Positions 5,238-37,324 of a stretch of 64,000 nucleotides of DNA are shown piece after piece. A program made the translations under genes and the position numbers. The notes beneath the pieces were generated by a model. The model did not search any database. It was not told where the DNA came from and worked only from the letters and a program-made list of their open reading frames with translations. Each line of letters begins with the position of its first letter. Within the stretch, counting starts at the first letter, position 1. The DNA comes from Christensenella minuta. Lineage in GTDB: Bacteria > Bacillota > Clostridia > Christensenellales > Christensenellaceae. The stretch is taken from contig NZ_CP029256.1 of the NCBI RefSeq assembly GCF_003628755.1, forward strand, positions 1,569,585-1,633,584. Direction: 5' to 3'.

Positions 5238-6431
5238 ATGGAAAATCTACGGCAGCTTGTATTAAAATTACGCTCGCTCGTTTTATTCCGCGGGCTTCTG
5301 GAAGACCCGGCCATACAAAAATTCATGGCGCTTGCGGACGAAGCGGAACAGGGCGATCCCGAAAAATGTGTGGCAGCGTATTCGGATTTTTGCGCGCGGC
5401 TTTTCGCGTGCAGGGTCAATTTCAGCGATTACATCCTGAATACGTTGCTGGAGAGCGAAAACCTTTACGCCCTGAAAAAAGGACGCGGGGAAAATGTGGA
5501 GCCGCAGCTTGAAAAATGCCTGAAAAACGAGCTTGCCATTTTGCAGGAGCTTGCGGGCATCCCAGCCGCGCAAATAAAACGGCTGCTTCCTTATGACGGC
5601 TTCCTGCCCGAGTGGGAAATTTCAGATCATAATTTTACACAGGTCTACAGGGACCGCATAGCGCACATTGGCACCCACGGCTTTGGGCCGTTCGTAAAGT
5701 ATTATTTCTTTACGGTTGCGGAAGGCGGACTTGTCCCGGTAAAATATCCGGATGAAACACGGCTGTCCGAACTCTCCGGCTATGAATACGAACGCGGTTG
5801 CGTGGTCAAAAATACGCTCGCCCTGCTGAAGGGTAAACCCGCCGCCAACGTACTTTTGTATGGAGACAGCGGCACCGGGAAATCTTCCACCGTAAAGGCG
5901 GTGGTAAACGAATTTGCACAGCAGGGGCTCCGGCTGATTGAAATCAAAAAAAGCCAGCTGCGGATGATTCCAGCACTGATCGACAGCCTTGGAAAAAATC
6001 CGCTGAAATTCATACTATTTATCGACGACCTTTCCTTTACCCGAGACGACGACGATTTTGGCGCGCTCAAGGCAATTCTCGAGGGTTCCGTTTCTGCGCG
6101 CACCAAAAACCTTGCGGTCTACGCGACGAGCAACCGCCGCCACCTGGTACGCGAGACTTTTTCCGACCGCGAGGGCGACGAGGTGCACGCGAACGACACG
6201 GTCCAGCAGTTGACTTCCCTTTCCGACCGCTTCGGGCTGACGATCACTTTTTCCCGCCCGAACCGGGAGCAGTATTTTGGGATCGTCGACCACCTCGCGA
6301 AGCTTTACGGTGTTGTAATGGACACAGGCGAGCTGCACCGCCAGGCGGAAATTTACGCGCTCGAGCGGGGCGGACGTTCGCCGCGTGTGGCGAAGCAATT
6401 TTTGGAACAGGTACAGTCGTTGGGGGTCTAA
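5238..6431 (+). CDS. DUF815-type AAA+ ATPase
   Basis: 397 residues from ATG 5238, with GGGGAGG eight bases upstream; an adjacent GTG at 5235 is an equal alternative. Walker A is GDSGTGKSS near residue 210 and Walker B is FILFIDDLSF near 260. A later ATSNRRHLV segment and the SDRFGLTI/RSPRVAKQF region fit the C-terminal AAA+ sensor regions. This is the conserved DUF815 architecture: a variable helical N-terminal half of ~180 residues and a C-terminal ATPase. The family is common in Clostridia and its function is not established. It stands alone with its own promoter, so the neighbours give no hint. Confidence 0.85.
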   Translation: MENLRQLVLKLRSLVLFRGLLEDPAIQKFMALADEAEQGDPEKCVAAYSDFCARLFACRVNFSDYILNTLLESENLYALKKGRGENVEPQLEKCLKNELAILQELAGIPAAQIKRLLPYDGFLPEWEISDHNFTQVYRDRIAHIGTHGFGPFVKYYFFTVAEGGLVPVKYPDETRLSELSGYEYERGCVVKNTLALLKGKPAANVLLYGDSGTGKSSTVKAVVNEFAQQGLRLIEIKKSQLRMIPALIDSLGKNPLKFILFIDDLSFTRDDDDFGALKAILEGSVSARTKNLAVYATSNRRHLVRETFSDREGDEVHANDTVQQLTSLSDRFGLTITFSRPNREQYFGIVDHLAKLYGVVMDTGELHRQAEIYALERGGRSPRVAKQFLEQVQSLGV

Positions 6432-6668
6432 AGCACACTTTTTTGATACGAAGAACAGTGTATTATTCTATATAATACAGTTGTAAAACATCTCTGTTGA
6501 GCGGTTTTTGGTCGTAATGGATAAAAAGGGCCGGGACCGGCTGAATCCCTGCCAAGAGACAAAGGATGGACTGTACCGGGTGGACGGAGTGAGTTGGAAC
6601 GGCCGGGGAGAAATAAAACGGACGGAGCAGAGAGCAGGAGCGGCAAACAAAAAACATGTGGATTCGTA

Positions 6669-7592
6669 CTAACCGAAGACCTGGCTGCTTTTGAGAACGC
6701 CGGTGAGGTCAAAGGGAGGGATGAAGCTTTCGCCTGCCGCCTCCCCTTCCTGGAGGAATCCATTTTCTATGCCGAGGCCGACCGCAAAATCGACCAGCGC
6801 ATCATATTCCTCCGTCCGGACGTGCCTGCGCAATTCTTCCGGAAGCCGTTCTTTACATACGGGGGTATACTGGCTCATCAGGCTCAGCCAGATTTTGTTG
6901 CCATAGGTTTCATACAGATAGCGGACGACCGCCCGTGAATCTTCGAGGCAGCCAGGCAAAAGCAGATGCCGCACGATAACGCCCCGCCGCATCAAGCCCT
7001 TTTCATCAAATTCCGCCTCTCCCGCCTGGCGCACCATCTCGCGCAGGGCGCGTTTTGCCGCGAGCGGATAATCTGCCGCGCGGGAATACCGCCGGGCAAG
7101 GGATACGTCCATATATTTAAAATCCGTCAGGTAGATATCCACCAGTCCGTCCAAGCGGCGAAGCGCCTCCACACTTTCGTAGCCCGAACAATTATATACG
7201 ATGGGAAGGGCGAGGCCGCGTTCCGCGGCGCGCGCAAGCGCCTCCATGATATGCGGGATATAGTGGGTCGGCGTAACGAGGTTGATATTTGCCGCGCCCT
7301 GCCCCTGCAATTCCAAAAAGATATCCGCAAGCCTGCCCGTGGAGACCTCAGCCCCGGCCTGCCCGCCGCTGATCTCGGCGTTTTGGCAATAAACACAGTG
7401 AAGCGGGCAATAGGAAAAAAAGACCGTACCCGAACCGACCGTGCCCGAAATGCACGGTTCTTCCCAAAAATGGAGCGCCGCACGCGCCACTTTGAGCCGC
7501 GCGTCCGCCCCGCATATTCCCGTTTCACCCGCCGTCCTGTCTGCTCCGCAAGCGTGCGGGCACAAGCGGCAGCGTTTCAGCAATGGTTCCAT
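6669..7592 (-). CDS. PflX-like radical SAM protein (COG1313 type)
   Basis: 307 residues from ATG 7592. It starts with a CRLCPHACGADR cysteine block, then CGAD, then the radical SAM 4Fe-4S motif CPLHCVYC (CxxxCxxC). A GSGTVFFS segment before it and NINLVTPTHY after it match the PflX/COG1313 family, annotated as putative pyruvate formate-lyase activating enzyme-like but of unproven role. The frame continues upstream to 7715, but those residues do not look like the family. No ribosome site precedes 7592; an extended -10 promoter abuts it, so a leaderless mRNA is possible (see findings). No pyruvate formate-lyase gene is in the window, so the target protein is unknown. Confidence 0.85.
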   Translation of the reverse strand: MEPLLKRCRLCPHACGADRTAGETGICGADARLKVARAALHFWEEPCISGTVGSGTVFFSYCPLHCVYCQNAEISGGQAGAEVSTGRLADIFLELQGQGAANINLVTPTHYIPHIMEALARAAERGLALPIVYNCSGYESVEALRRLDGLVDIYLTDFKYMDVSLARRYSRAADYPLAAKRALREMVRQAGEAEFDEKGLMRRGVIVRHLLLPGCLEDSRAVVRYLYETYGNKIWLSLMSQYTPVCKERLPEELRRHVRTEEYDALVDFAVGLGIENGFLQEGEAAGESFIPPFDLTGVLKSSQVFG

Positions 7593-7598
7593 GAAACT

Positions 7599-7607
7599 AT
7601 TATAGCA
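7599..7607 (-). promoter_or_regulatory. Extended -10 promoter abutting the PflX-like start codon
   Basis: Minus-strand TGCTATAAT (7607-7599) is followed by six bases and then the ATG, so the predicted +1 falls on the start codon itself. Confidence 0.5.
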
Positions 7608-7715
7608 TTTTTCGCATCTAAAACCGAATGCGTAATACAATTTCCTCGGCACACGATCTCCTGCTGAAATCCGTTGTTTTGAGGGGGGCAGATTATCCTG
7701 CGTGCAATGCCGCAC

Positions 7716-8018
7716 AGGATGGGCTTCTATTCATTTTCCCACTGGATATACCGGGCGCAGTGCCCGCAAAATTTTTCCATAGCAGCCTCTTCTCTTCCGG
7801 CTGATTACTTTATTTTTTATTCCGGGACCAATAGTCCTATGCGTCAATAGTACATTATGTCCTGCCCTATAATAAAAGGAAAGTCTCCGAAAACAAGCAT
7901 CTGTTCCTTTATTACACAGAACATATTCTTGCTTTGGGCGGGAGAAACCCTATGCGTAAATACATGGGGACAAATAAGGTATTGCCCACCCAAAGGCCGA
8001 ATACTCTTTATTCATGTG
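7716..8018. other. Intergenic stretch without a recognised gene
   Basis: About 300 bases between the radical SAM gene and the NSS transporter promoter. I see no conserved riboswitch core, convincing ORF with a ribosome site, or tRNA. A short ATG-initiated frame from 7857 has no ribosome site and no recognisable product. Confidence 0.5.
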
Positions 8019-26612: not shown

Positions 26613-27482
26613 TCATTCCACAAACTGTTTTTTTACAAACCGCAGCGCTTCCCGGATGTCCTCGTCCATCTGCTCCACGCTCGCCCCTTCCGACAGGTCC
26701 CGCCATACCTTGATATCGCTTCCTACCGTCCCGCCCATCTTCACGAACGGCTCCATCACCACCGCCCCATCGTACCCGGCCTCCCGCAGCGCCGCGCCCA
26801 TTTCCGCCCACGGCATGTGCCCTTTCCCCGGCACCTTACGGTTCCCTTCCCCAATGTGGAAATGCCCCAGGCTGTTCCCCGTCCTGCGGATCGCCTCCCC
26901 GAGCCCGTCTTCCTCGATGTTCATATGGAAGCTGTCCAGCATTACCTTTGCATTCTCTTTCCCGATCTCTTTTACGAACTCCACCGCCTCTTCCGCGCTG
27001 TTGATGATGTATTGCTCGAAGCGGTTCACCGTTTCCATCGCCAGCACGATGTCAAGGCTCTCCGCCGTATCCGCAGCCTCCCGCATGCTCCTCACCGCAG
27101 CCTCCCGCGCGCGCTCCTTATCCACCGGCTGATTGTAATCGCACGGCCAGTAGGCATAGATGATCCCTCCTAAGATATGCGAATCCACCTTGTACATCGC
27201 GTCCATGATGCGCTTCAAATACTCTACCCCCGCCCGGCGGACTCCCTCGTCCGCCGACGCGGTGTTATACTGCGGCGGAAGGCCGATACAGGCGGTGATT
27301 TCGACCCCGTTTTCCTGCGCCGCACGTTTGATATCGAAAAGCTCTGCGTCCGTTCTCTGCGCAAGGCCCCCCGCCGCCACCTCGAGGACGTCGAACCCCA
27401 GCCCCGCCGCCTTTTCGCAGTAGGATGCGTAATCTGCGTCCCACTCCCGTTCCCAATATGCGAAATATGTACCGAATTTCAT
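26613..27482 (-). CDS. D-psicose (allulose)/D-tagatose 3-epimerase family enzyme
   Basis: 289 residues of the AP-endonuclease-2 TIM-barrel family. It closely tracks characterised D-psicose 3-epimerases as I recall them: KFGTYFAYWEREW start, LGFDVLEVAA, YWPCDYNQPVDK, the catalytic Glu in AMETVNRFE, metal ligands in VMLDSFHMNIEED and GHFHIGEGNRKVPGKG, and the second catalytic Glu in VVMEPFVKMGG. These enzymes epimerise free ketohexoses at C3, for example D-fructose/D-allulose, with Mn2+ or Co2+. It is the last gene of the ABC-transporter operon, after a polyol dehydrogenase, which suggests conversion of an imported rare ketose. Exact substrate is inferred. Confidence 0.9.
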   Translation of the reverse strand: MKFGTYFAYWEREWDADYASYCEKAAGLGFDVLEVAAGGLAQRTDAELFDIKRAAQENGVEITACIGLPPQYNTASADEGVRRAGVEYLKRIMDAMYKVDSHILGGIIYAYWPCDYNQPVDKERAREAAVRSMREAADTAESLDIVLAMETVNRFEQYIINSAEEAVEFVKEIGKENAKVMLDSFHMNIEEDGLGEAIRRTGNSLGHFHIGEGNRKVPGKGHMPWAEMGAALREAGYDGAVVMEPFVKMGGTVGSDIKVWRDLSEGASVEQMDEDIREALRFVKKQFVE

Positions 27483-27493
27483 TCCTCTTCTCC

Positions 27494-28525
27494 TTACTGC
27501 GCCGTTACGTTCAGGATTACCTTCTGTACGTCGTCCTTATGTTCTTCGATGTATTGATACGCCTCCGCTGTTTGCTCCAGAGGGAACTCTTTGCTGATAA
27601 GGGCCTTCAGGTCCACCTTCCCGCCGCGTACAAGCCCAATCGCCTCAAGGTAGTCTTCCTCTGTATACATCAGCGTTCCGACCAGGGAATATTCCCGATC
27701 CTGCACGTTCGCCAGATTGACTGCCGCACGGTTCCCATACACACCCACGATGACGATATTGATCCCTTTTCTCACAATATCCAGGGCTTGGTTAAGCGCC
27801 TTTTCGTTCGCGCTGCATTCGTAGACCACATCCGCCCCGTCTTCGCCAAATTTCTCGCGCATCACCTGCGCGGCATCTTCATTTTTAATGTTCACAGGAT
27901 AGTCGAGCCCGCACTTCTTAGCCATTTCAAGCTTATAATCCGATACATCCGTAACCATGACGGCGGCGGCTCCAAGGCCTTTTGCACTCTGCGCGACCAC
28001 ATTTCCGATGGTCCCTGCCCCTATGACCCAGACCTTTTTTCCTTTCACGCCGCTGACCCCGCGTTTTACCGCATGTACGCCCACCGCGAGCGGCTCTATG
28101 ATGGTACCTTCGCCATATCCGGTATGGTCCGGTATTTTATAGACCAGCTCTTTTTCTACCGCATAATACTCCGAGCTTGCCCCGGTATCCTGACAGCCCC
28201 ATACTTCCAGCTTCTTGCACACATTGTACCTTCCTTCCCGGCACAGGCTGCATTCGCCGCAAATTTTTTGCGGGCGGTAGATCACACGGTCGCCCGGCTG
28301 GATATTCTCAACTTTTTTGCCTGTTTTTACGACTTCGCCCGTCGCCTCATGTCCCAACACGACCGGGCACGTGATGAATGGGTGCTCGCCATAGTATGCG
28401 TGGATATCCGATCCGCAGATTCCGACCGCGCGCACCCGGATCAGCACCTGTGTTTCCGTGATTTCAGGCACGGGCACTTCCCGCACTTCAAACTGTTTCG
28501 GCGCAGTCAATACTACTTGTCTCAT
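27494..28525 (-). CDS. Zinc-dependent medium-chain alcohol/polyol dehydrogenase
   Basis: 343 residues. The catalytic zinc site is seen in GICGSDIHAYYGEHP and GHEATGEVV, and the structural zinc site in a CGECSLCREGRYNVC four-Cys lobe. The Rossmann loop is VIGAGTIGNVV, followed by VTDVSDYKLEMAKKCG, where the Asp fits NAD preference. The family includes sorbitol, L-iditol, threonine and galactitol-phosphate dehydrogenases. Its position between the binding protein and the 3-epimerase suggests it interconverts a sugar alcohol and a ketose before or after epimerisation. It is separated from the epimerase gene by only 11 bp. Confidence 0.88.
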   Translation of the reverse strand: MRQVVLTAPKQFEVREVPVPEITETQVLIRVRAVGICGSDIHAYYGEHPFITCPVVLGHEATGEVVKTGKKVENIQPGDRVIYRPQKICGECSLCREGRYNVCKKLEVWGCQDTGASSEYYAVEKELVYKIPDHTGYGEGTIIEPLAVGVHAVKRGVSGVKGKKVWVIGAGTIGNVVAQSAKGLGAAAVMVTDVSDYKLEMAKKCGLDYPVNIKNEDAAQVMREKFGEDGADVVYECSANEKALNQALDIVRKGINIVIVGVYGNRAAVNLANVQDREYSLVGTLMYTEEDYLEAIGLVRGGKVDLKALISKEFPLEQTAEAYQYIEEHKDDVQKVILNVTAQ

Positions 28526-28550
28526 TTTCTGTATCCCCTCTCATTTTTAT

Positions 28551-28583
28551 CCGAAGGCTCCCCGCTGTTCGGGAAGCCTTCGG
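28551..28583 (-). repeat. Intercistronic stem-loop after the binding-protein gene
   Basis: CCGAAGGCT...CCC and GGG...AGCCTTCGG arms. On the minus strand no T-run follows. Such hairpins downstream of binding-protein genes often protect that mRNA and lower expression of distal genes; that role is inferred here. Confidence 0.6.
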
Positions 28584-28606
28584 ACCGACGACAATCCGTC
28601 TTGGTT

Positions 28607-29962
28607 TTATTGATTCTCCGCTTTCAGCTCCGGGATGGACTGTGGAAACTGGAATTCCTGCGTCTTATAAAATCCGATGCTTTCGTCATACATTTCGTCT
28701 ACATTTTCCTTACTGATAACGCCGGGGGTAAACAGGGATTCAAGCGGAAGGTCGGAACAGTCTTTGCCTTCCTCGAAAATCGCGTGGATAAAATCGATCG
28801 CCCATTCGCCCTGCTCGATGCCGGAATTGAGGCCTGTGCACAGAAGGTCGCCGCTTTTGATAAGGTCGAGGCCCTCGCGCGTGCCGTCCGCAACCGAACC
28901 GATCTTTACCTGGTCTTTCATATTTGCGGAAGTAAGCGCTTTAAGGGCGCCTGCCGCCATAAAGTCGTTTTCAGAGATCATCAGGTTCATACCCGCGTTT
29001 GCCGTGCAAAGGTCTTCTGCCGCCGCGAGGCCGCCTTCGATCGTCCAGTCGCCGGTTCCGTAGCCCGTTACCTGGAAGCCGGCTTCGTCGCTGCCGCCTT
29101 TGCCGTTCGATTTGATTTCTTCAAACAGGTTATAGCCGGCCAGCCACGCATCTTCATCTGAAGCGTAGGGCGTTCCCTTTGCTTCCATCCTTTGCTTTAA
29201 AATACCGGATACCGCGCCGCACAGGCGGCTTTCCGTACAGGAGCTTCCCATAACGCCGACGATCATCGTTGCGCTGATCTCTTCGTCCGCCGCGAACTGT
29301 TCCGCCATATACTGCCCCGTCAGGTAGCCGTTCATGAACGTATTGGAGCAAAGCGTGGTGAGAGCCGCGCAGTTTTCCGGAACCGCGCCGACACAGAGCA
29401 CCGGGATGCCAGCCTCCACCGCGCGGTTGATATCCGCTACCGGAGCGCTGGAGTTGACCGGATCGACAACGATGATATCAACGCCCTGCGTAATAAACGT
29501 ATCGATGTGCTGGCTCTGCGTCTGCGGATCGTCTTCCGCGATCAGGAATTCGAGCTCATAGCCATATTCCTTTGCTTTTTCTTCCGCACTGTTCTTGACT
29601 GCGATAAACCAATCGCTGGACTGGTTAATTTCGGTCCAGCCAATTTTGAGCGTTCCTTCCGCCGCGGGCTCTTTGGGCCATGCCTTATCGAGATCCGCAC
29701 GGTCTTCCACATACGGGTTGACGATGCCCGCGAGGGAAAGCTTAGGCATAAGCTGGTAGATTTCATGCACCTCGCCCGCCGCAGCCTCGGTTGAAGCGGA
29801 TGCGGGGGCCGATTCCTCGCCGCTTGCTTCCGTGCTTGCTTGCGCTTCAGTGGATGCGGAAGCCGATTCCGTCGCCGTTGTTTCAGCCGGCGTGCACGCC
29901 GTGAACAGGAGCAGCGCTATCACCACAACCGCCAGAAGAGAATACCATTTTTTCTTTTTCAT
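28607..29962 (-). CDS. Sugar ABC transporter substrate-binding lipoprotein (RbsB-like fold)
   Basis: 451 residues. Signal peptide MKKKKWYSLLAVVVIALLLF with lipobox FTAC (Cys near 23), then a Ser/Ala/Thr/Glu-rich linker to about residue 63 that spaces the domain from the membrane. The mature part has the periplasmic-binding-protein type 1 pattern: LKIGWTEINQSSDWF, ITQGVDIIVVDPVNSSA, AGIPVLCVGA, and a late GEWAIDFIHAIF. It is about 100 residues longer than RbsB, with insertions around residues 235-275. It should deliver a sugar or sugar alcohol to the permease encoded just upstream. Specificity unknown. Confidence 0.9.
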   Translation of the reverse strand: MKKKKWYSLLAVVVIALLLFTACTPAETTATESASASTEAQASTEASGEESAPASASTEAAAGEVHEIYQLMPKLSLAGIVNPYVEDRADLDKAWPKEPAAEGTLKIGWTEINQSSDWFIAVKNSAEEKAKEYGYELEFLIAEDDPQTQSQHIDTFITQGVDIIVVDPVNSSAPVADINRAVEAGIPVLCVGAVPENCAALTTLCSNTFMNGYLTGQYMAEQFAADEEISATMIVGVMGSSCTESRLCGAVSGILKQRMEAKGTPYASDEDAWLAGYNLFEEIKSNGKGGSDEAGFQVTGYGTGDWTIEGGLAAAEDLCTANAGMNLMISENDFMAAGALKALTSANMKDQVKIGSVADGTREGLDLIKSGDLLCTGLNSGIEQGEWAIDFIHAIFEEGKDCSDLPLESLFTPGVISKENVDEMYDESIGFYKTQEFQFPQSIPELKAENQ

Positions 29963-30003
29963 TTCTTTTCCTCCATTTATTTTTATTCTTCGTAAAGAAA
30001 TGT

Positions 30004-31011
30004 TTAATCCTGATTTTTAGTGCTGACACTCTGCACGAATACAGAGGCAAGGATGATGATCCCTTTCACGATCTGCTGCGGATAGGCCGGAACGCTTAAG
30101 AGGTTCATGATGTTCGTGATGAGCGCGAGAATCAGCACACCGATGATCGTTCCGCCCACGGAGCCGCGTCCGCCCGAGAGGCTCGCGCCGCCGATCACGC
30201 AGGCCGCGATCGCGTCAAGCTCATAGCCCTCTCCGGAGATTGGGGTGCCCGTCCCGGAGCGGCATGTCATGACAATGCCCGCGAGCGCGCACATGAGTCC
30301 GCTGATTGCATAGACCGCAAATTTATATTTTTTGGCGTTGATGCCCGCAAGGGTGACCGCATCCTGATTGGAGCCCGTTGCGATCACGAGCCGTCCAAAC
30401 ACCGTATATTTGGAAAGCAGCCAGAACACGGCCAGCACCGCGGCGCCGAGAATGACCGGCCACGGAACGACGCCCACGCCTTTGCTTCCGAAGTCCAGCA
30501 GCGCCTGCGCGCCCGTTCCCTCCGGCCAGCGGATCGGCTGCCCGTTGGTAACCAGATAGGCGATGCCGCGGCCGATCGTCATCATCGCCAGCGTTACGAT
30601 AAAGGCCGGCATCCGCAAAAAAGCGATGAATGCGCCGTTGACCGCCCCAAGCGCGAGGCCGATGACAAGCGTCAGGGCAATTCCCATAAAGATTCCAAAG
30701 CCTGTCGTCCAGTTCCAGGATACGATACTGACGGAAATCATCATGCCTGCAACGGCCGCAATAGAGCCGACCGACAAGTCGATCCCGCCTGTGAGGACCA
30801 CGAGGAGCATTCCCATCGCAATCAGCATGATCGGCGTATTTTGCCGGAGAAGGTTAAAGATGTTCTGTGTGCTCAGGAATACCGGAGACAGGATCGCCGA
30901 GATGATGATAAGCGCCGCCAAAATCAATATGGCGTTATACTTAATCAGGAATTCCTTCACAGTCAGTTTCTTCTTGATTTGCATCATTTCCGTATTGCCC
31001 GTTGTGTTCAT
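30004..31011 (-). CDS. Sugar ABC transporter permease (RbsC-like)
   Basis: 335 residues with about eight to ten membrane segments. The MLLVVLTGGIDLSVGSIAAVAG block and the C-terminal GGASLSGGRGSVGGTIIG loop, the coupling helix that contacts the ATPase, are hallmarks of ribose/xylose-type permeases (BPD_transp_2 family). It would form a homodimer in the plasma membrane. Its start overlaps the stop of the ATPase gene by 4 bases (31008-31011), showing translational coupling, and the binding-protein gene follows after 41 bp. Confidence 0.93.
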   Translation of the reverse strand: MNTTGNTEMMQIKKKLTVKEFLIKYNAILILAALIIISAILSPVFLSTQNIFNLLRQNTPIMLIAMGMLLVVLTGGIDLSVGSIAAVAGMMISVSIVSWNWTTGFGIFMGIALTLVIGLALGAVNGAFIAFLRMPAFIVTLAMMTIGRGIAYLVTNGQPIRWPEGTGAQALLDFGSKGVGVVPWPVILGAAVLAVFWLLSKYTVFGRLVIATGSNQDAVTLAGINAKKYKFAVYAISGLMCALAGIVMTCRSGTGTPISGEGYELDAIAACVIGGASLSGGRGSVGGTIIGVLILALITNIMNLLSVPAYPQQIVKGIIILASVFVQSVSTKNQD

Positions 31012-32510
31012 ATATTTTCTACCCCCATTGACAGTTTAATCAGATTTTCTTCGCTGATCTCATTTTTATTGAGCTCTCCCATGACCTTTCCTTCCCTCAT
31101 CACGAGGACCCGGTCGCTCATCCCGATAATTTCGGGCATTTCCGACGAGATCATGATGATGCTCGCGCCTTCCTCGGCCAGCTGGTTGATGATCCGGTAG
31201 ATTTCGACCTTGGCGCCTACGTCCACGCCCCGGGTGGGTTCGTCAAAAATCAATATCTTACAGTTGCTTCCGAGCCACTTGGCGAGCGCCACCTTTTGCT
31301 GGTTGCCCCCCGAAAGGCTGGAAGCATCGTTCTCAATACTTCCGATCTTGATCCTGAGCTTATCGACGAGATCGTCGATCACCTCGTCTTCTTTTTTCTT
31401 GTTGATCCATCCGAATGCCCCGGACAGCTCTTTCAGGCTCGCAAGCGTCATATTTACGCGGATCGGCTGATTGATGAGCACTCCGTGCTTTTTCCTATCC
31501 TCGGGCAGCATCCCGATCCCGAGCGATACCGCTTTTTTTGACGAAGTGATCTGGACGGGCGTTCCGCCGAGGATGACGCTCCCGGAGTCTTTCTTATCCG
31601 CTCCGAACACCGCACGCAGCGTTTCTGTCCGCCCTGCGCCGACGAGGCCGTTGATTCCGAGGACTTCCCCTTCCCTTACTTCAAAGGAAACGTCCTGCAC
31701 TTTTTTCCCGCAGCAAAGATGTTCCACCTTCATCGTAACGCCGCCGATCCTGGCGTTCCTTGGCGGGAACATCTCGGTGAGGTCGCGGCCGACCATCATT
31801 TTTACCAGCTGTTCCTCCGTAATATCCTTGGTGGTCACAGTGTCCACGTTTTTCCCGTCCTTCAGGACGGTGATCTTGTCGCACACCGCAAAAATCTCGC
31901 TGAGGCGGTGGGAAATATAAATGATACAGACGCCCTGTTCTTTTAAAGTCTCGATGATCTTGAAGAGCTGTTTTTCTTCGCTCGACGCAAGCACCGCCGT
32001 CGGTTCGTCGAACACCAGCACGCTGGAATTGCGTGAGAGCGCTTTGCTGATCTCCACCACCTGCTGGTAAGCAACGGAAAGGTTCTCGACCTTTTCACGT
32101 ACGTCGATATGCCCAAAGCCAAGCCAGTCCAGTATCTTCCGGGCCTGCCGGTTCAGCTGGTTCCAGTCGATTACCGGTTTCCCTTCGCCCAGGTTGTCGA
32201 TCAGTATATTCTCCGCGACAGTTAGATGCGGCGCCAGTGCGAATTCCTGATAGATAACGGAAATCCCGGCATCGCGCCCGTCCTTTGTGCTGCTGATCTC
32301 CTTTTTTTCCCCGCCTATCCTGATTTCCCCGTGGTCACGCGAATATGCGCCCGCGAGTATTTTCATCAGGGTCGATTTTCCCGCCCCGTTTTCTCCCATC
32401 AGCGCATGCACCTCTCCGCGGTCCGCACAGAAATCCACATGCTCCAGGGCGGCGATCCCGCCAAAACTTTTGCATATATCAGTCATTTCAACTTCATGCG
32501 TATATGCCAT
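31008..32510 (-). CDS. Sugar ABC transporter ATP-binding protein (RbsA-like, double NBD)
   Basis: 500 residues with two nucleotide-binding domains. NBD1 has GENGAGKST, an IYQE Q-loop, LSVAYQQVVEI in the signature place, VLVFDEPTA and the H-loop ISHR. NBD2 has the family's usual altered Walker A GLVGAGRTE, PEDRKKHG, LSGGNQQKVALAKWL and LIFDEPTRGVD. All catalytic motifs expected of carbohydrate-uptake CUT2 ATPases are intact, in contrast to the divergent paralogue at 32883. It is the first gene of the uptake operon. Confidence 0.95.
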   Translation of the reverse strand: MAYTHEVEMTDICKSFGGIAALEHVDFCADRGEVHALMGENGAGKSTLMKILAGAYSRDHGEIRIGGEKKEISSTKDGRDAGISVIYQEFALAPHLTVAENILIDNLGEGKPVIDWNQLNRQARKILDWLGFGHIDVREKVENLSVAYQQVVEISKALSRNSSVLVFDEPTAVLASSEEKQLFKIIETLKEQGVCIIYISHRLSEIFAVCDKITVLKDGKNVDTVTTKDITEEQLVKMMVGRDLTEMFPPRNARIGGVTMKVEHLCCGKKVQDVSFEVREGEVLGINGLVGAGRTETLRAVFGADKKDSGSVILGGTPVQITSSKKAVSLGIGMLPEDRKKHGVLINQPIRVNMTLASLKELSGAFGWINKKKEDEVIDDLVDKLRIKIGSIENDASSLSGGNQQKVALAKWLGSNCKILIFDEPTRGVDVGAKVEIYRIINQLAEEGASIIMISSEMPEIIGMSDRVLVMREGKVMGELNKNEISEENLIKLSMGVENI

Positions 32511-32572
32511 ATTTACACCTCTTTATTCATTTTGTTTTCGGCAATTTTAATTTGTGGAATTTGATTAAGTGC

Positions 32573-32600
32573 ATTATACTAAGTATCCGCACACGGACAA
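32573..32600 (-). promoter_or_regulatory. Predicted promoter of the sugar ABC operon
   Basis: Minus strand: TTGTCC (32600-32595), 16 bp, TATAAT (32578-32573), 63 bases before the ATG. Confidence 0.6.
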
Positions 32601-32712
32601 AGGAGCGCCGGGTCAGAAAAAGGGGGGATATCTCCCGTACTTTTCCGCGGGGCCACGGAGCTTCGGTCCATAAATGAGATGGATTTTTTCTCCCTTTCGG
32701 GCTTCCATCTGG

Positions 32713-32774
32713 AATCAGACCCCCCGAATCCATAATTAGACCCCTACTTTTCCCCGGGGGATATCAGTTATAAT
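32713..32774 (+). promoter_or_regulatory. Promoter of the regulatory operon with two direct repeats
   Basis: TATAAT (32769-32774) lacks a recognisable -35. Instead AATCAGACCCC (32713-32723) and AATTAGACCCC (32734-32744) repeat with 21-bp periodicity, the second ending 24 bp before the -10. A looser pair, TCCATAAATGAGA (32667) and TCCATAATTAGA (32729), is also present. This layout is typical for an activator such as an AraC-type protein. Confidence 0.5.
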
Positions 32775-32882
32775 GGGACGAAGAAAACATTACTTTTCGC
32801 GTCTTTTTGAAAGCCATATGTATTTCCGGTTTGTCTAATAGAATGCCCGCTTGCCGCAGAATTTTTGAAGGAGGTCTTCCGC

Positions 32883-34358
32883 TTGAAAACTGAATTGCTT
32901 CGCGTTGAGTTTTTATGCAAATTTTTTCACCAGGATATGATCCTCGACCATGTTACATTCAATGTGTTTGAAGGCGAAACGCTCGCAATCCTCGGCGCGA
33001 ACGGCGCGGGAAAGACGCCGCTCGTGAGAATCCTCGGCGGGATCCTTCAAAAGGATACGGGCGAGCTTTTTTTCCGTGAAGAGCCTCTTTTCGACTATTC
33101 GCTCGAAAAAGCGCAGGCCCTCGGCATTCATATCGTGCAGCATTGCGGACGGATCGCCGATTCCCTTACGGTCGCCGAAAATATATGTATCCCCGCACGG
33201 CCCCGGGGCTGGATCAACCACCGTAAAATTGCCGCCCGGGCAAAAGCGCTGATGGGGCTTGTCGGCCTTGCGCGAAGCCCCTATGCACTGACCGGGGACC
33301 TGTGCGCTTCTGAAAAATCGCTCGTTGAGCTGGCGGCGGTTTTGAATCTTGGGCCGCGCCTGTTGATTTTTGACGAACCGCCCCTGCCTTATTCCGGTTC
33401 TCTGGGCCAAAAAATCCTTAATGTGATCGCCCACCTGAAGGCAAAGGGCTCTTCCGTCATCTATGTTACGGATAACATCCGAGACGCTCTGCAGGTCGCC
33501 GACAGGATCCTTGTGCTGCGCGACGGGATCGCCGCGGGGATTTTTGACAGGCAGAGCCCTTATTTTAATCCCCGGGACCTTTTGACCGTAATGGCAGGCA
33601 AAGGCGGAGGAACGCAGGCATACGAACCCGCGCGCCGGGACGACGTGATTATGGAGGTCAGGGACCTTTCCTGCCGCGTCCTCCATGATATCAATTTTCA
33701 TATTTACCGCGGCGAGATCCTTGGCATCGTGGGGCCAATGGATTCCAACAAAAGCATGCTGCTCCAACTGCTTTACGGATTTGTCCGCAGGACCAGGGGA
33801 ACCATCCTGATCGACGGTGAGGCCGTCCATATCCGTTCTCCCAAAGACGCCGTACGGCTGGGCATTTCTTACTTTACTTCGATGAAGGAAAAATCACACC
33901 TGTTGCCCGGTCTGACCGTAATGGAAAACATTACCCTTGCCGCGGCAAGGCGCGTCAGCAGCCTGGGGTGGATCAAACCGCACATCGAAAAGCATTATGC
34001 CGCAAGCCTGCTGGAGGCGTTCTCCATCCCCCCTTCCCTGCTTTCCGTCGTGACCGGCAGGCTGAGCAGCGGACTGCGCCAGAAGATACAGTTTATCCAG
34101 TGCCTGGCCGCAAAGCCGCGCATCATGCTTCTCTATGAGCCGACCAACGGGATCGATTTGGAAACGAAAAAGGAAATCCGCGAAGGGATCAAGCGGATGG
34201 CAGCCGAGGGCTGTACATTCGTCGTCGTATCCTCCAACATGCAGGAAAGCCTCGGAATATGCGACCGCTTCCTGGTACTGAGCGGAGGAGCGATCAAGGG
34301 TGAGCTTTCAAAGCCCGAAGCGGAACAGAGCAAGATCATCGAATTGATGCAAAAATAA
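32883..34358 (+). CDS. RbsA-like double ABC ATPase with degenerate motifs, next to a two-component system
   Basis: 491 residues from TTG 32883 (GGAGG eight bases upstream). It is homologous along its length to CUT2 sugar ATPases but several motifs are lost. NBD1 keeps Walker A GANGAGKT (38-45, followed by Pro) and Walker B LLIFDEP, but its signature region reads LCASEKSLVE and the H-loop His is Asp (VTDN, residue 197). NBD2 has GPMDSNKS (284-291) for Walker A, FTSMKEKS where PEDRK is expected, signature LSSGL, and LLYEP for Walker B. No permease gene accompanies it; the response-regulator gene follows after 16 bp. I infer a regulatory or nucleotide-binding role rather than transport. It may still form a mixed ATPase with the divergent transporter. 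Confidence 0.85.
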   Translation: MKTELLRVEFLCKFFHQDMILDHVTFNVFEGETLAILGANGAGKTPLVRILGGILQKDTGELFFREEPLFDYSLEKAQALGIHIVQHCGRIADSLTVAENICIPARPRGWINHRKIAARAKALMGLVGLARSPYALTGDLCASEKSLVELAAVLNLGPRLLIFDEPPLPYSGSLGQKILNVIAHLKAKGSSVIYVTDNIRDALQVADRILVLRDGIAAGIFDRQSPYFNPRDLLTVMAGKGGGTQAYEPARRDDVIMEVRDLSCRVLHDINFHIYRGEILGIVGPMDSNKSMLLQLLYGFVRRTRGTILIDGEAVHIRSPKDAVRLGISYFTSMKEKSHLLPGLTVMENITLAAARRVSSLGWIKPHIEKHYAASLLEAFSIPPSLLSVVTGRLSSGLRQKIQFIQCLAAKPRIMLLYEPTNGIDLETKKEIREGIKRMAAEGCTFVVVSSNMQESLGICDRFLVLSGGAIKGELSKPEAEQSKIIELMQK

Positions 34359-34374
34359 GCAAAGGAGCACATAA

Positions 34375-35976
34375 ATGATAAAAACAATCATTGTGGACGA
34401 CGAGGTTTGGGTATGCAAACTGATTTGCAATATTGTGGATTGGGGGAGTTACGGCTATGAAGTTGTAAGACAGGTATACAGCGGAACGGAGGCTCTCGAG
34501 GTGATCGCCGCGGAAAAGCCGGACCTCGTGTTTACCGACATCCGTATGCCCGGTATCGACGGCCTGAGCCTGATACGCGAGGCCGGGAAGATCAATCCAG
34601 GCACCAAATTCGTAATCATCAGCGGATACAGTGATTTTGAATACGCCAAAACCGCAATCGACCTCAATGTGCTCGGTTACCTTTTAAAACCGGTGGAACC
34701 GGAGGACCTTTCTTCCCTGCTTATGCGCCTGGAAGACGGTGTTTTCGGCAGCGCGGCGGAGAATTCCAATTCCCTTCACGAGGAGCTGAAAAAAAGCAAG
34801 CGGCAGTTCCGTGAGCAATTCATGTACAATTTCCTGATGGTCAACCCCCAGCCCGCTTATTTTTCTCTCGAACAGTTCAACAGGGAATCGGGGCTTGCCT
34901 GCCGCGAGGGGTGTTTCCAGGTATTCCAGATGATGCTGGACGAAAAAAACGGGGCCGCGCCCACTGCAAGTTCCGCCATTTTCCAGGCAATCACGGAATA
35001 TTGCTACCGTCTTTTAAAACCATGCTGCTTTGACGTATGCGTGATCCGGGTCAATCTTTCCGCCGTATGCGCCGTCAATTTCTCTCCGGCGGACGAAAGC
35101 AGGATCCGCGTCACGATGGAAGAGGTCTTCCATCAATGCCGCAACTATATCCCGGATATTTCGCGCTACAGCGTAACGCTTGGCGTGGGCGGCGCAGCGC
35201 GCTGCTTTTCCGGGCTTTCCGAATCCTTCCACTCCGCGCAGGACGCGGTGCGGGCGCGGATGATCCTCGGAACGGACCGCATCATCAGCCTCGGCGGGCA
35301 GGCGGCATCCCCGGAAATCAAGGAATTGTTCCCGCCGAGCTATAAAAACCTGATCCTGCGTTACCTCAACCATACCTGCGAATACAGCGCGCCGCAGGCG
35401 ACGGCGCTCATCTTTGAAAAGTTCGACAAAAACAAACTGACGGACAACCCGGGCATGCTCTTCCGCTTCGCCCTCGAATTTATCGACTCCCTCTATGCCG
35501 CCCTTGCGGGCTGCGGTGTGTCTCTTGCCGGGATGCAGCCGCAGGAAGCGGCAAAGCAAAAAATAGAGTCCCTGAACTCGATCGGGCAATTGAAACAATA
35601 CCTGACGGAATTGCTTGAAGCGGGCCGCCAGCTGTGCGATTCGCAAAAAAACAAAACAGTATCCACCATCGAGATCCTCAAAAATTATATCGGGGAACAT
35701 TTTAACGAAGACATCAGCCTAAGCGATCTTTCCTCACAGGTATACCTCAACCCCAAATATATCAGCGAATTGTTCAAAAAGGAAACGGGCGTCAATTTCA
35801 GCGACTACCTCTCCGCCGTACGTATCGAAAAGGCTAAGGGTTACCTGATCGATCCGCGCTGCCGTATCAGCGAGATCGCTTCTCGGGTCGGTTACAGCGA
35901 CATCAAATATTTCAGCAAGCTGTTCAAGAAGATCGTTGGGGTGACTCCTTCCGAATTCAGGAAGCTGCATTGCTAA
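34375..35976 (+). CDS. YesN-type response regulator (receiver plus AraC HTH)
   Basis: 533 residues after AAAGGAGC. The receiver domain holds the acidic pair VDDE, phospho-acceptor Asp in VFTDIRMPGIDG near residue 55 and Lys in YLLKPVEPED. A ~300-residue linker domain with no clear motif follows. The C-terminal ~100 residues are an AraC helix-turn-helix pair (ISLSDLSSQVYLNPKYISELFKKE and ISEIASRVGYSDIKYFSKLF regions). Such regulators, paired with LytS/YesM kinases, activate carbohydrate-uptake genes. It sits between the degenerate ATPase and its kinase, divergent from the sugar ABC operon, the presumed target. Confidence 0.93.
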   Translation: MIKTIIVDDEVWVCKLICNIVDWGSYGYEVVRQVYSGTEALEVIAAEKPDLVFTDIRMPGIDGLSLIREAGKINPGTKFVIISGYSDFEYAKTAIDLNVLGYLLKPVEPEDLSSLLMRLEDGVFGSAAENSNSLHEELKKSKRQFREQFMYNFLMVNPQPAYFSLEQFNRESGLACREGCFQVFQMMLDEKNGAAPTASSAIFQAITEYCYRLLKPCCFDVCVIRVNLSAVCAVNFSPADESRIRVTMEEVFHQCRNYIPDISRYSVTLGVGGAARCFSGLSESFHSAQDAVRARMILGTDRIISLGGQAASPEIKELFPPSYKNLILRYLNHTCEYSAPQATALIFEKFDKNKLTDNPGMLFRFALEFIDSLYAALAGCGVSLAGMQPQEAAKQKIESLNSIGQLKQYLTELLEAGRQLCDSQKNKTVSTIEILKNYIGEHFNEDISLSDLSSQVYLNPKYISELFKKETGVNFSDYLSAVRIEKAKGYLIDPRCRISEIASRVGYSDIKYFSKLFKKIVGVTPSEFRKLHC

Positions 35977-35989
35977 TTAAGGAGCGCAC

Positions 35990-37324
35990 ATGCCGAAATT
36001 ATTTACTTCATTTAAAAAGCGCATAGACAAAATTGTTTTAAGAATGAACAATCACAAAATCGGGACGGGACTTACCATCCTGCTGACCGCCTGCGCCGCA
36101 ATTTTCGTCGCCCTGCCCGTCGCATATACGCTTTATTCCTCTGAACTCCTGCACAACCAGCGGCTGGCCCTCGGCCGGGCCGAGGCCAACCTTGCCTTTC
36201 AGGAGCTTGACTTTGTGTGGGGAGGCCTTCCGCCGGAGGACGGATTCAACGACTATTCCGGGCACCTGGTCCTCGTGGACCAGGCGGGGGACGTTATTTT
36301 TTCCACTGTGCCGGGTCCGGAAAAACAGGCCGTGCGGCCGGACGCGAAAGAAGACAGCATCGTCTTCACCCATTCCCTTGCAAGCGGTATGACCGCTTAT
36401 TACTTGTATCCTTCCTACCGCATGGATACGGTAGCGGCGGTGTGGATCAGTATTGCCTATGTCGCTGTTTTTATCTGTATCCTTTTCATTATCAAGCGCA
36501 AAATGTACGACCCGATCACAAAGGTGGAGCGCATCCTTCACGGCGTGATCGAAGGGGAAACCGATTTTACATTTGACGCCGCCAAAAGAAGCGACCTGTT
36601 CTCCCCGATCTTTTCCGACCTGCACGCCTTGTTTGAAAACATGAAGGCCCTGACCCTGCGCGAATCGAACGCCCAGCTAATGAAAAAGCAGGCGGAGCTC
36701 GACGCCCTCCAAAGCCAGATTAACCCGCATTTCCTATATAATACCCTGGAGGCGATCCGCGGGCAGGCAATCGAGTATGGGCTGCAGGATATCGAGATGA
36801 TGACCCGTTCGCTTTCCAAGCTCTTCCGTTACAGTATCAGCAACCATAACACGCTGGTGACGCTGAGAGAGGAGCTTGACAATGTGGATAATTATTTATA
36901 TATCCAGCATCTTCGCTTCAACAACAAATTTACAAAAATCAGCCGTATCGACGAAGACGCCCTCGATTATATGGTCCCCAAGCTGATTATCCAGCCGATC
37001 GTGGAAAACGCGATCTATCACGGGCTCGAGATGAAGATCGGCCAGGGACAGATTATCATCAGCGCATACATCACTGAGACAAGACTGATTATCGATATCC
37101 AAGACGACGGACTTGGGATCAGCGAAGAAAGCCTGCGGAGGCTGAACGCTACCCTTTCGGAAGGAAACACACAGATCAAGCCGCATACGAAAGGCTCGTC
37201 CATCGGCCTGCGGAACGTGAACGCGCGCATCCGCCTGACCTTCGGCAAGGGTTACGGAATCAGCGTATACAGCACCGAAGGCGCAGGTACGGACGTCCAG
37301 CTGAAGCTTCCCCTGACTAAATAA
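35990..37324 (+). CDS. YesM-type sensor histidine kinase
   Basis: 444 residues, AAGGAGC upstream, 13 bp after the regulator gene. TM1 at about 26-47 and TM2 near 147-167 enclose a ~100-residue extracytoplasmic region. A HAMP-like linker follows, then the His_kinase motif QINPHFLYNTLEAIRGQA with the phosphorylated His, then the ATPase domain (QPIVENAIYHGLE N-box, IQDDGLGIS, SIGLRNVNARI). The sensor loop is short for direct sugar binding, so the signal may come through a partner protein such as the transporter or its binding protein. That is inference. Confidence 0.93.
   Translation: MPKLFTSFKKRIDKIVLRMNNHKIGTGLTILLTACAAIFVALPVAYTLYSSELLHNQRLALGRAEANLAFQELDFVWGGLPPEDGFNDYSGHLVLVDQAGDVIFSTVPGPEKQAVRPDAKEDSIVFTHSLASGMTAYYLYPSYRMDTVAAVWISIAYVAVFICILFIIKRKMYDPITKVERILHGVIEGETDFTFDAAKRSDLFSPIFSDLHALFENMKALTLRESNAQLMKKQAELDALQSQINPHFLYNTLEAIRGQAIEYGLQDIEMMTRSLSKLFRYSISNHNTLVTLREELDNVDNYLYIQHLRFNNKFTKISRIDEDALDYMVPKLIIQPIVENAIYHGLEMKIGQGQIIISAYITETRLIIDIQDDGLGISEESLRRLNATLSEGNTQIKPHTKGSSIGLRNVNARIRLTFGKGYGISVYSTEGAGTDVQLKLPLTK

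Follow-up and report, generated by a model that had tools for sequence, protein, structure and literature searches.

A worn CUT2 importer ATPase in a YesMN two-component operon of Christensenella minuta: a candidate third component for sugar signalling

Why should the ATPase of a sugar importer be the first gene of a two-component operon? The question is raised by positions 26613-37324 of a 64,000-nucleotide stretch of the Christensenella minuta genome (contig NZ_CP029256.1; the whole stretch is called the window here), which contain two divergent operons with eight genes, all of them with open frames when checked as ORFs and against Pfam and NCBIfam. The plus-strand operon begins with a CUT2/RbsA-like ATPase with eroded motifs (32883..34358, 491 residues from TTG 32883; hereafter the orphan ATPase), followed by a response regulator of the YesN type (34375..35976, with Pfam Response_reg and AraC HTH domains) and, adjoining it, a 444-residue histidine kinase of the YesM type (35990..37324, with Pfam His_kinase, PF06580, and HATPase_c). 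There is no permease gene on this arm, which holds only these three genes. The minus-strand operon encodes a CUT2 importer, with an intact tandem ATPase of the RbsA type (31008..32510, from Pfam and the motif table) and, from Pfam/NCBIfam, a 335-residue RbsC-type permease with a BPD_transp_2 domain (30004..31011) and an RbsB-type sugar-binding protein (28607..29962). The reading that we favour, with modest confidence, is that the orphan is a CUT2 importer ATPase captured by the YesMN system as a third, signalling component that carries the state of the importer. It builds on the recurrence of the arrangement, its gene order, the erosion of the motifs, purifying selection, a link to kinases with reduced sensors, and conserved repeats in the control region.

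The erosion was assessed with eight motif checks, applied to 46 RbsA-type ATPases of the window genome; the RbsA of the window importer was excluded from this set and was scored instead in the cross-genome motif table. The orphan fails six of the eight checks, compared to none or one for 35 of the 46 (15 pass all eight; 20 fail one, which for 18 of these is the strict signature of the first nucleotide-binding domain, NBD1). The Walker A (GANGAGKT) and Walker B (FDE) motifs of NBD1 are retained in the orphan, and the Q-loop Gln, the H-loop His and the NBD1 signature are lost. In NBD2, the Walker A motif (GPMDSNKS), the Walker B Asp (LLYEP) and the strict signature (LSSGLRQ) are lost as well. 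The protein has full-length tandem-NBD homology to CUT2 ATPases, with two matches to Pfam ABC_tran and 297.6 bits against the RbsA model over residues 10-492 (under the equivalog cut-off of 745), and lacks a full set of working motifs as well as a permease of its own. The initial annotation had called this ATPase degenerate and had placed it first in a two-component operon without a permease; the motif checks and the gene content of the plus arm agree with both statements.

The window genome, of 2.97 Mb, encodes 47 full-length RbsA-type ATPases including the orphan and the importer RbsA, a remarkable number of CUT2 systems. None of its four most eroded ATPases, the orphan among them, shares a transcription unit with a permease, and each is located near a CUT2 importer, so the phenomenon recurs inside this genome. 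The ATPase at 2722662-2724152 (loci L047 and L058) comes last in the order YesN, YesM (351 residues), ATPase and fails all eight checks. At 2792563-2794290 (6064-7791 of locus L046), a solitary ATPase that fails seven checks is divergent from an importer, whose RbsA scores highest against the window RbsA. At 2503451-2504944 (locus L037), an ATPase that fails four checks lies behind a DeoR-family regulator. This last pair (6452-8733 of L037, or 2503451-2505732), in which Walker A, Walker B and the signature of NBD2 are altered, points away from the genes of an RbsB-RbsA-RbsC importer in a divergent layout, and repeats the idea with a regulator of the one-component kind.

The initial annotation had proposed a search for the ATPase-YesN-YesM triplet beside CUT2 importers in other genomes. 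When the two gene orders are taken together, the outcome is positive for eleven families and rules out a restriction of the triplet to the window genome. The first order (type I, ATPase-YesN-YesM) is found in five of the six genomes of the genus Christensenella that were compared (the window genome, G001, G002, G004 and G005), and in two other families (genomes G195 and G175 (f65)); the sixth Christensenella genome, G003, has only the second order (type II, below). The orphan ATPase is 88% identical in the nearest named relative, C. intestinihominis; the identity to the window protein is 88% for G002 and 50% for G001. The type I cassette is divergent from a CUT2 importer in the window, G001, G002 and G005, continues directly into RbsB-RbsA-RbsC in G004, and has importer genes a few kilobases away in G195 and G175. 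Importers of different cassettes have different neighbours, such as an alpha-galactosidase-family gene in G001 and the D-psicose epimerase gene of the window, and the module is therefore not bound to one sugar.

In a search with the window YesM, the top matches after the protein itself are unusually short kinases directly beside an ATPase. Nine short kinases were combined into a profile, which was searched against 391 genomes of the class, with the best five candidates scored per genome, as well as against 299 genomes of the phylum, 32 of family f9 and six of the genus. At least 24 short YesM proteins (332-368 residues) were found, 17 in the class, three more in the phylum, one more in f9 and three more in the genus (G002); the class-wide number, being drawn from the best five candidates per genome, is possibly an undercount. 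A cassette ATPase accompanies 23 of the 24, in the order YesN-YesM-ATPase for 22 and with the ATPase first for G175. The ATPase is convergent in the G003 cassette and in the matching G002 locus, and that of G040 is visible for 169 residues up to the contig end. Type II cassettes (YesN, short YesM, pseudo-ATPase) are present in nine families (f1, f40, f44, f26, f67, f23, f9, f173 and f106). The 24th short kinase, that of G356, has no ATPase adjoining YesM. This genome was dropped as a true exception, since a pseudo-ATPase of the core family is present at another locus (E 2.5e-206), as if retained in trans. The G356 protein (9115-10569 of L246) is full-length, is 56% identical to that of G602, and is encoded at an unrelated locus apart from YesM and the importer.

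CUT2 importer genes are located near all 22 short-kinase loci that have enough flank (G040 and G114 end too soon). Type II cassettes frequently continue into these genes, including the importer's own RbsA. The order YesN-YesM-pseudo-ATPase-RbsA is found on one strand in 14 loci (with RbsA cut by the end of the contig or region in two), and G303 and one G002 locus have the order YesN-YesM-ATPase-SBP-RbsA-RbsC (SBP, solute-binding protein). In the own-genome, G003 and two G002 loci, the cassette is separated from the importer by other genes or lies on the opposite strand.

The kinases of these cassettes are reduced in their sensor region. The large outer sensor of YesM, which we take to be of the Cache type, is present neither in the window YesM nor in any of its 24 short relatives. 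Hydropathy analysis places the two membrane helices of the short proteins practically end to end, with practically no outer segment (24 of 24). In the window YesM, about 95 residues are found between the helices. The six type I kinases of 441-485 residues have their helices about 90-125 residues apart, and all six have the ATPase. Intramembrane-sensing kinases have two helices and an outer loop of under about 25 residues; the short YesM proteins of the sister cassettes are similar to BceS in this regard, and the window YesM is not. As a control, 17 long YesM proteins (587-646 residues; 13 from the class, two from the phylum and two from f9) were taken from the same searches. They have about 230-270 residues between the helices, except for L109, where a single helix was called. 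No orphan CUT2 ATPase lies beside YesN/YesM in any of the 17 surroundings, with just 655 bp visible upstream of YesN in L191. CUT2 importer genes are close in three of these loci (L190, L192 and L193), and L170 has permease-like and RbsA-like frames at a greater distance. Two further long kinases (L237 and L238) have no ATPase within their 1.5-kb flanks.

The converse search started from the ATPase. A model was built from eleven core pseudo-ATPases and run on 196 genomes of the class, with the best eight candidates scored per genome. Among the matches listed, seven full-length proteins at 6.5e-189 or better and the partial one of G040 all adjoin a short YesM, and all others are at 9.9e-78 or weaker. 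Neighbourhoods were checked for the matches that came with a locus. Besides those eight, there were 23 such loci: the ATPase-YesN-YesM cassette of G195, 21 in which RbsA has an adjoining permease gene, and one (L215) without a labelled permease. Diverged members (Own2 and the cassette ATPases of G003 and G175) were not picked out by the core model at the threshold used. An N-terminal motif, [ED]-h-h-R, is shared by 22 of 23 cassette ATPases, in comparison with 2 of 61 RbsA and none of four other orphans; four of six cassette ATPases added later carry it, by our own reading of the alignment.

Erosion of the Walker, Q-loop, H-loop and signature motifs is graded across the cassette ATPases. The G004 protein is nearly intact. 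That of G195 has lost the Arg/Lys of the NBD2 P-loop and one Walker B Asp, and that of G175 has intact Walker A and B motifs in both halves and neither signature. A single plausible ATP site, that of Walker A and B in NBD1, is left in the proteins of the window, G002, G001 and G005. In the core type II proteins there is no complete nucleotide site, and some retain the P-loop Lys; the Walker B Asp of NBD1 is missing in all 15 core pseudo-ATPases of the motif table and in G356. The diverged type II members vary, with one G002 protein retaining the Walker A motif of NBD1. The core pseudo-ATPases are still recognizable as relatives of RbsA, with an ABC_tran match in 11 of 11 (Pfam, E up to 0.1) and an alignment to RbsA over 470 columns at a probability of 99.9%.

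The window ATPase is under purifying selection and evolves like its two-component partners. Against the 88% relative, the ratio of nonsynonymous to synonymous substitution rates (dN/dS) is 0.075 for the ATPase, 0.074 for YesN and 0.098 for YesM, and 0.020, 0.018 and 0.042 for RbsA, RbsC and RbsB of the importer, respectively. Among type II pairs, the ATPase has values of 0.109 (G054/G082) and 0.061 (G181/G298), both above those of YesN and YesM, and the pair G288/G392 is saturated.

These observations suggest how the captured ATPase might work. The short kinase lacks an outer domain as well as any recognised cytoplasmic sensor, and for this reason needs a partner; since the gene supplied is a pseudo-ATPase and the constant neighbour is a CUT2 importer, a path from importer to pseudo-ATPase to YesM is the most economical. 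A worn ATPase beside a sensor-poor kinase suggests that the old motor now informs the kinase about the sugar importer. The orphan ATPase would keep the tandem-NBD fold and dock on the RbsC-type permease or the importer complex, and would no longer power transport. Binding of sugar-loaded RbsB would alter the importer, and the orphan ATPase would pass this change to YesM, which has a reduced outer sensor in the window and none in the sister cassettes. YesM would then phosphorylate YesN, and YesN would act at the shared control region to switch both the importer-catabolism operon and its own. The NBD1 site may, in the window form, bind ATP without turnover; the commonest sister form, with neither site complete, would be a pure pseudo-ATPase. 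The initial annotation had suggested that the ATPase relays the transporter state to the kinase. The loss, or near loss, of the outer sensor in the partner kinases supports this model in part; the physical relay itself is inferred. It had also suggested a mixed ATPase formed by the orphan and RbsA. Both proteins are chains of two NBDs, and one such chain should fill the permease dimer, which makes the mixed ATPase less likely.

A more general statement is also possible, and we hold it more tentatively. The ATPases of these cassettes may be an undescribed family of importer-derived (pseudo-)ATPases that serve as obligatory signal-transmitting subunits in a class of sugar-sensing two-component systems, with the permease and the binding protein as the receptor and with kinases that have shed their sensor. 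Living genomes would then preserve the transition between an ATPase that is nearly intact (G004) and a pure signalling scaffold (core type II).

Other functions for the orphan ATPase can be weighed against this evidence. It could be a decoy or brake, a pseudo-ATPase that competes with RbsA for the permease and stops uptake, with the YesMN operon shared merely as the regulatory arm. A retained fold with lost catalytic motifs fits such a role, as do the many cassettes that are in line with importer genes. On the other hand, the loss of the kinase sensor alongside retention of the ATPase would be left unexplained, and so would G356, which keeps the pseudo-ATPase in trans with a short YesM. The position of the ATPase start at the YesM stop is another feature that this function does not account for. 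With type II starts chosen by the family motif, the start is placed between 38 nt before and 23 nt after the YesM stop in 17 of 18 cassettes, as for translationally coupled genes, to judge from the spacing. We consider a decoy or brake unlikely.

About equally improbable is a cytoplasmic ligand sensor, in which a metabolite, be it a sugar, a sugar phosphate or a nucleotide, would bind at the former nucleotide sites and the protein would report it to YesM without the permease. New residues, at least 90% conserved, are found at the old catalytic sites of the core pseudo-ATPases (Q405Y, T426F, K434R and G288D, in window-RbsA numbering), with catalytic residues of NBD2 replaced, as might be expected of such a sensor. 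However, it would not need the CUT2 importer genes found near all of the loci with enough flank, nor does it fit the pattern of retained residues. This pattern was obtained for 11 of the 15 core members (four near-duplicates were omitted), relative to residues conserved in 59 ordinary RbsA, a reference that excludes two divergent own-genome ATPases (2745939 and 258461) with low-scoring permeases. The core members keep 27% of these residues at the catalytic motifs versus 37% elsewhere, the reverse of what is expected for a working ATPase. The stretch after the Q-loop, which in NBD1 should face the permease by analogy with other ABC importers, is kept better (53% in NBD1, 33% in NBD2) than the Walker A/P-loop (26% and 10%).

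An ordinary role in transport, with the orphan as a spare motor or as one shared with another permease, is very unlikely. Sharing of an ATPase is known among CUT1 importers (MsmK, for example; PMC8579813), and most motifs are kept in the G004 and G195 members. However, the NBD1 Walker B Asp is gone from all 15 tabulated core pseudo-ATPases and from G356, there is no permease on the window plus arm, and the importers own a motor, as 21 of 22 importer RbsA retain the Walker A and Walker B motifs of both halves (the exception, G175, has altered NBD2 Walker motifs). Finally, a decaying, functionless duplicate carried by linkage, which motif loss and evolution faster than RbsA might suggest, is hardly credible and as a pseudogene was rejected, given dN/dS values of 0.061-0.109 in three close pairs (the fourth being saturated), frames that are full-length in all but one of the ten short-kinase families (that of G040 runs into the contig end) and residues conserved in the ATPase family only.

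Several observations weigh against the captured signalling ATPase. The roughly 95 outer residues of the window kinase could allow it to sense alone. In two kinases of 489-490 residues, those of G102 (L107/L200) and G038 (L108/L201), the outer region is shortened to about 135 residues, and an orphan ATPase was seen with neither, the G038 contig (L201) stopping 330 bp past YesM; they belong to a distant clade and count against a strict rule that links sensor and ATPase. A 161-residue RbsA fragment beside the 490-residue YesM of G102 (L200) was rejected as an extra case, as the RbsA it belongs to is an ordinary one next to two permease genes. The G004 ATPase is almost intact, so that a signalling role there would follow from its position alone. 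The presumed permease-contact stretch is only moderately kept (53%, and 33% for the matching NBD2 stretch), and a non-catalytic stretch of NBD1, from the signature to Walker B, is kept better, at 65%. The [ED]-h-h-R motif is also present in three ordinary RbsA from the converse search. Moreover, the association between kinase and ATPase is mostly that of one lineage, with one independent contrast on supported branches and four on the best tree; with just one supported contrast, it cannot be called significant on the phylogeny. The reduced-sensor kinases cluster in a group of 35 rows that includes six long ones. One of the kinase trees omits three of 66 rows, and the contrast tree omits the fast-evolving kinase Own44.

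The 23 cassette ATPases split into several long-branched groups in the ATPase tree. Separate origins, as in the first quick tree, were not upheld, as holding all 23 together raised the likelihood by 33 units (approximately unbiased test, p-AU 0.819). In the tree enlarged with six more members, which omits eight near-duplicates and most own-genome RbsA (10 were kept), a starred branch separates 31 RbsA rows, along with two orphans from the AraC side, from the rest, and the G195 and G004 ATPases lie next to the RbsA group. With long branches involved, this does not amount to proof of a single origin of the ATPases.

Regulation by an importer component has precedents. MalK of the maltose importer acts on MalT. 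The PstSCAB-PhoU-PhoR system, in which the importer reports its transport state to the regulator (PMC6978683), is another case. In both it is the working ATPase or importer that reports, whereas here a dedicated paralogue would do so. In the BceAB-BceRS-type modules of Firmicutes, a kinase without an outer sensor relies on an ABC transporter (PMC7828314, PMC6978683). The cassettes are similar in that the short YesM kinases have no outer domain and the transporter and two-component genes are found together. There the sensor is a working antibiotic-resistance transporter; here there are a sugar importer and a separate, eroded ATPase paralogue. The kinases differ as well, YesM being of the His_kinase (PF06580) type, and instead of a BceB-like permease with an outer loop of 200-250 residues there is the 335-residue BPD_transp_2 permease RbsC.

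In CuaDSR of Ruminiclostridium cellulolyticum and in XylFII-LytS, an extra importer subunit in the two-component operon gives three-component control of the importer, and CuaR is of the YesN/AraC type (PMC10384115). Recruitment of an importer subunit into a two-component operon is common to these systems and the present one. However, they recruit a solute-binding protein onto the large outer domain of the kinase, while the extra gene here encodes a cytoplasmic ATPase, accompanied in the sister cassettes by short kinases that have no outer domain. GxgABC/GxgRS of Caldicellulosiruptor bescii, like the window locus, combines a CUT2 importer with a local two-component system; there, every CUT2 system is described as having its dedicated ATPase, and the text consulted mentions no second ATPase in a regulatory operon (PMC8579813).

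Kinases coupled to a transporter (BceAB-BceS) and importer subunits that a two-component system has taken over (CuaD, XylFII) are already in print. No description of an importer ATPase captured by a two-component system was found in the literature searched, which included few subscription papers and no bioRxiv preprints, and this absence is weak evidence of novelty. A range of Firmicutes carry a worn ATPase copy beside a kinase whose sensor is mostly or wholly lost, and it seems that an importer motor was duplicated, stripped of activity and given to a kinase that then lost its sensor. If this is true, the cassettes would provide a natural degeneration series from enzyme to signalling part, as well as a way into the problem of signal separation in Firmicutes that possess dozens of similar importers, and annotators should not label these genes as sugar-transport ATPases.

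The two arms of the window locus share a control region of 372 bp (32511..32882), a length that follows from placing the ATPase start at TTG 32883 and that agrees exactly with the figure in the initial annotation, whose divergent arrangement is confirmed. A longer mechanical ORF begins at TTG 32865; the start at TTG 32883 has a Shine-Dalgarno sequence (AAGGAGG) and the family N-terminus MKTELLRVE. In the alignment to the 88%-identical relative, two blocks of the region (about 32704-32751 and 32606-32648) are nearly unchanged amid drift. The first contains an operator-like block on the plus strand (32713..32751), with AATCAGACCCC and AATTAGACCCC spaced 21 bp and continuing into CCCCTACTTTT, which is nearly invariant in the relative and sits directly upstream of the TATAAT of the ATPase operon. 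A second copy of the box, CCCGTACTTTTCC (32634..32648, plus strand), lies upstream of the importer promoter. Within the window, CCCNTACTTTT is present just twice, once in each box, and CCC[GC]TACTTTT has two copies in the conserved blocks and none elsewhere in the window. The putative importer-operon promoter is sigma-70-like (TTGTCC-16-TATAAT, 32573..32600, minus strand); it is a consensus match only (1 found, 0.8 expected) and is conserved in the relative. A similar box, TCTCCCTACTGCTCC, judged by eye, is located ahead of a TATAAT in G001. Because they sit beside both promoters, the conserved repeats look like YesN operators and are candidates for this function in both arms.

The rest of the minus-strand operon encodes a zinc-dependent polyol/sugar dehydrogenase (27494..28525, Pfam/NCBIfam) and a ketose 3-epimerase (26613..27482). 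The initial annotation had listed both, together with an intact RbsA/RbsC/RbsB importer, and the Pfam/NCBIfam models and the motifs bear this out. The epimerase exceeds the cut-off of the NCBIfam D-psicose (allulose) 3-epimerase model (427.9 bits versus 300), which makes D-allulose or a related ketose a plausible substrate or inducer of the importer operon. No solved chain in the Protein Data Bank matches the window RbsA by sequence at E 1e-40 or better, and this tandem ATPase seems to be without a close solved relative.

At three loci (L153, L154 and L155), a type II cassette with the order YesN-YesM-pseudo-ATPase-RbsA-RbsC-SBP is located beside a myo-inositol cluster, an arrangement of genomes G054, G082 and G109. 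In L153 the models for iolG, iolD, iolE and MMSDH exceed their cut-offs and that for iolB is under its own; L154, which is cut within RbsA, and L155 are assigned by sequence likeness only. This neighbourhood makes the signalling reading directly testable, and the three loci are a good test bed. L040 (8993-11497) and L051 (4574-7172) each hold an additional CUT2 ATPase that is mostly intact and divergent from a regulator of the AraC type; the two ATPases are sisters in the ATPase trees.

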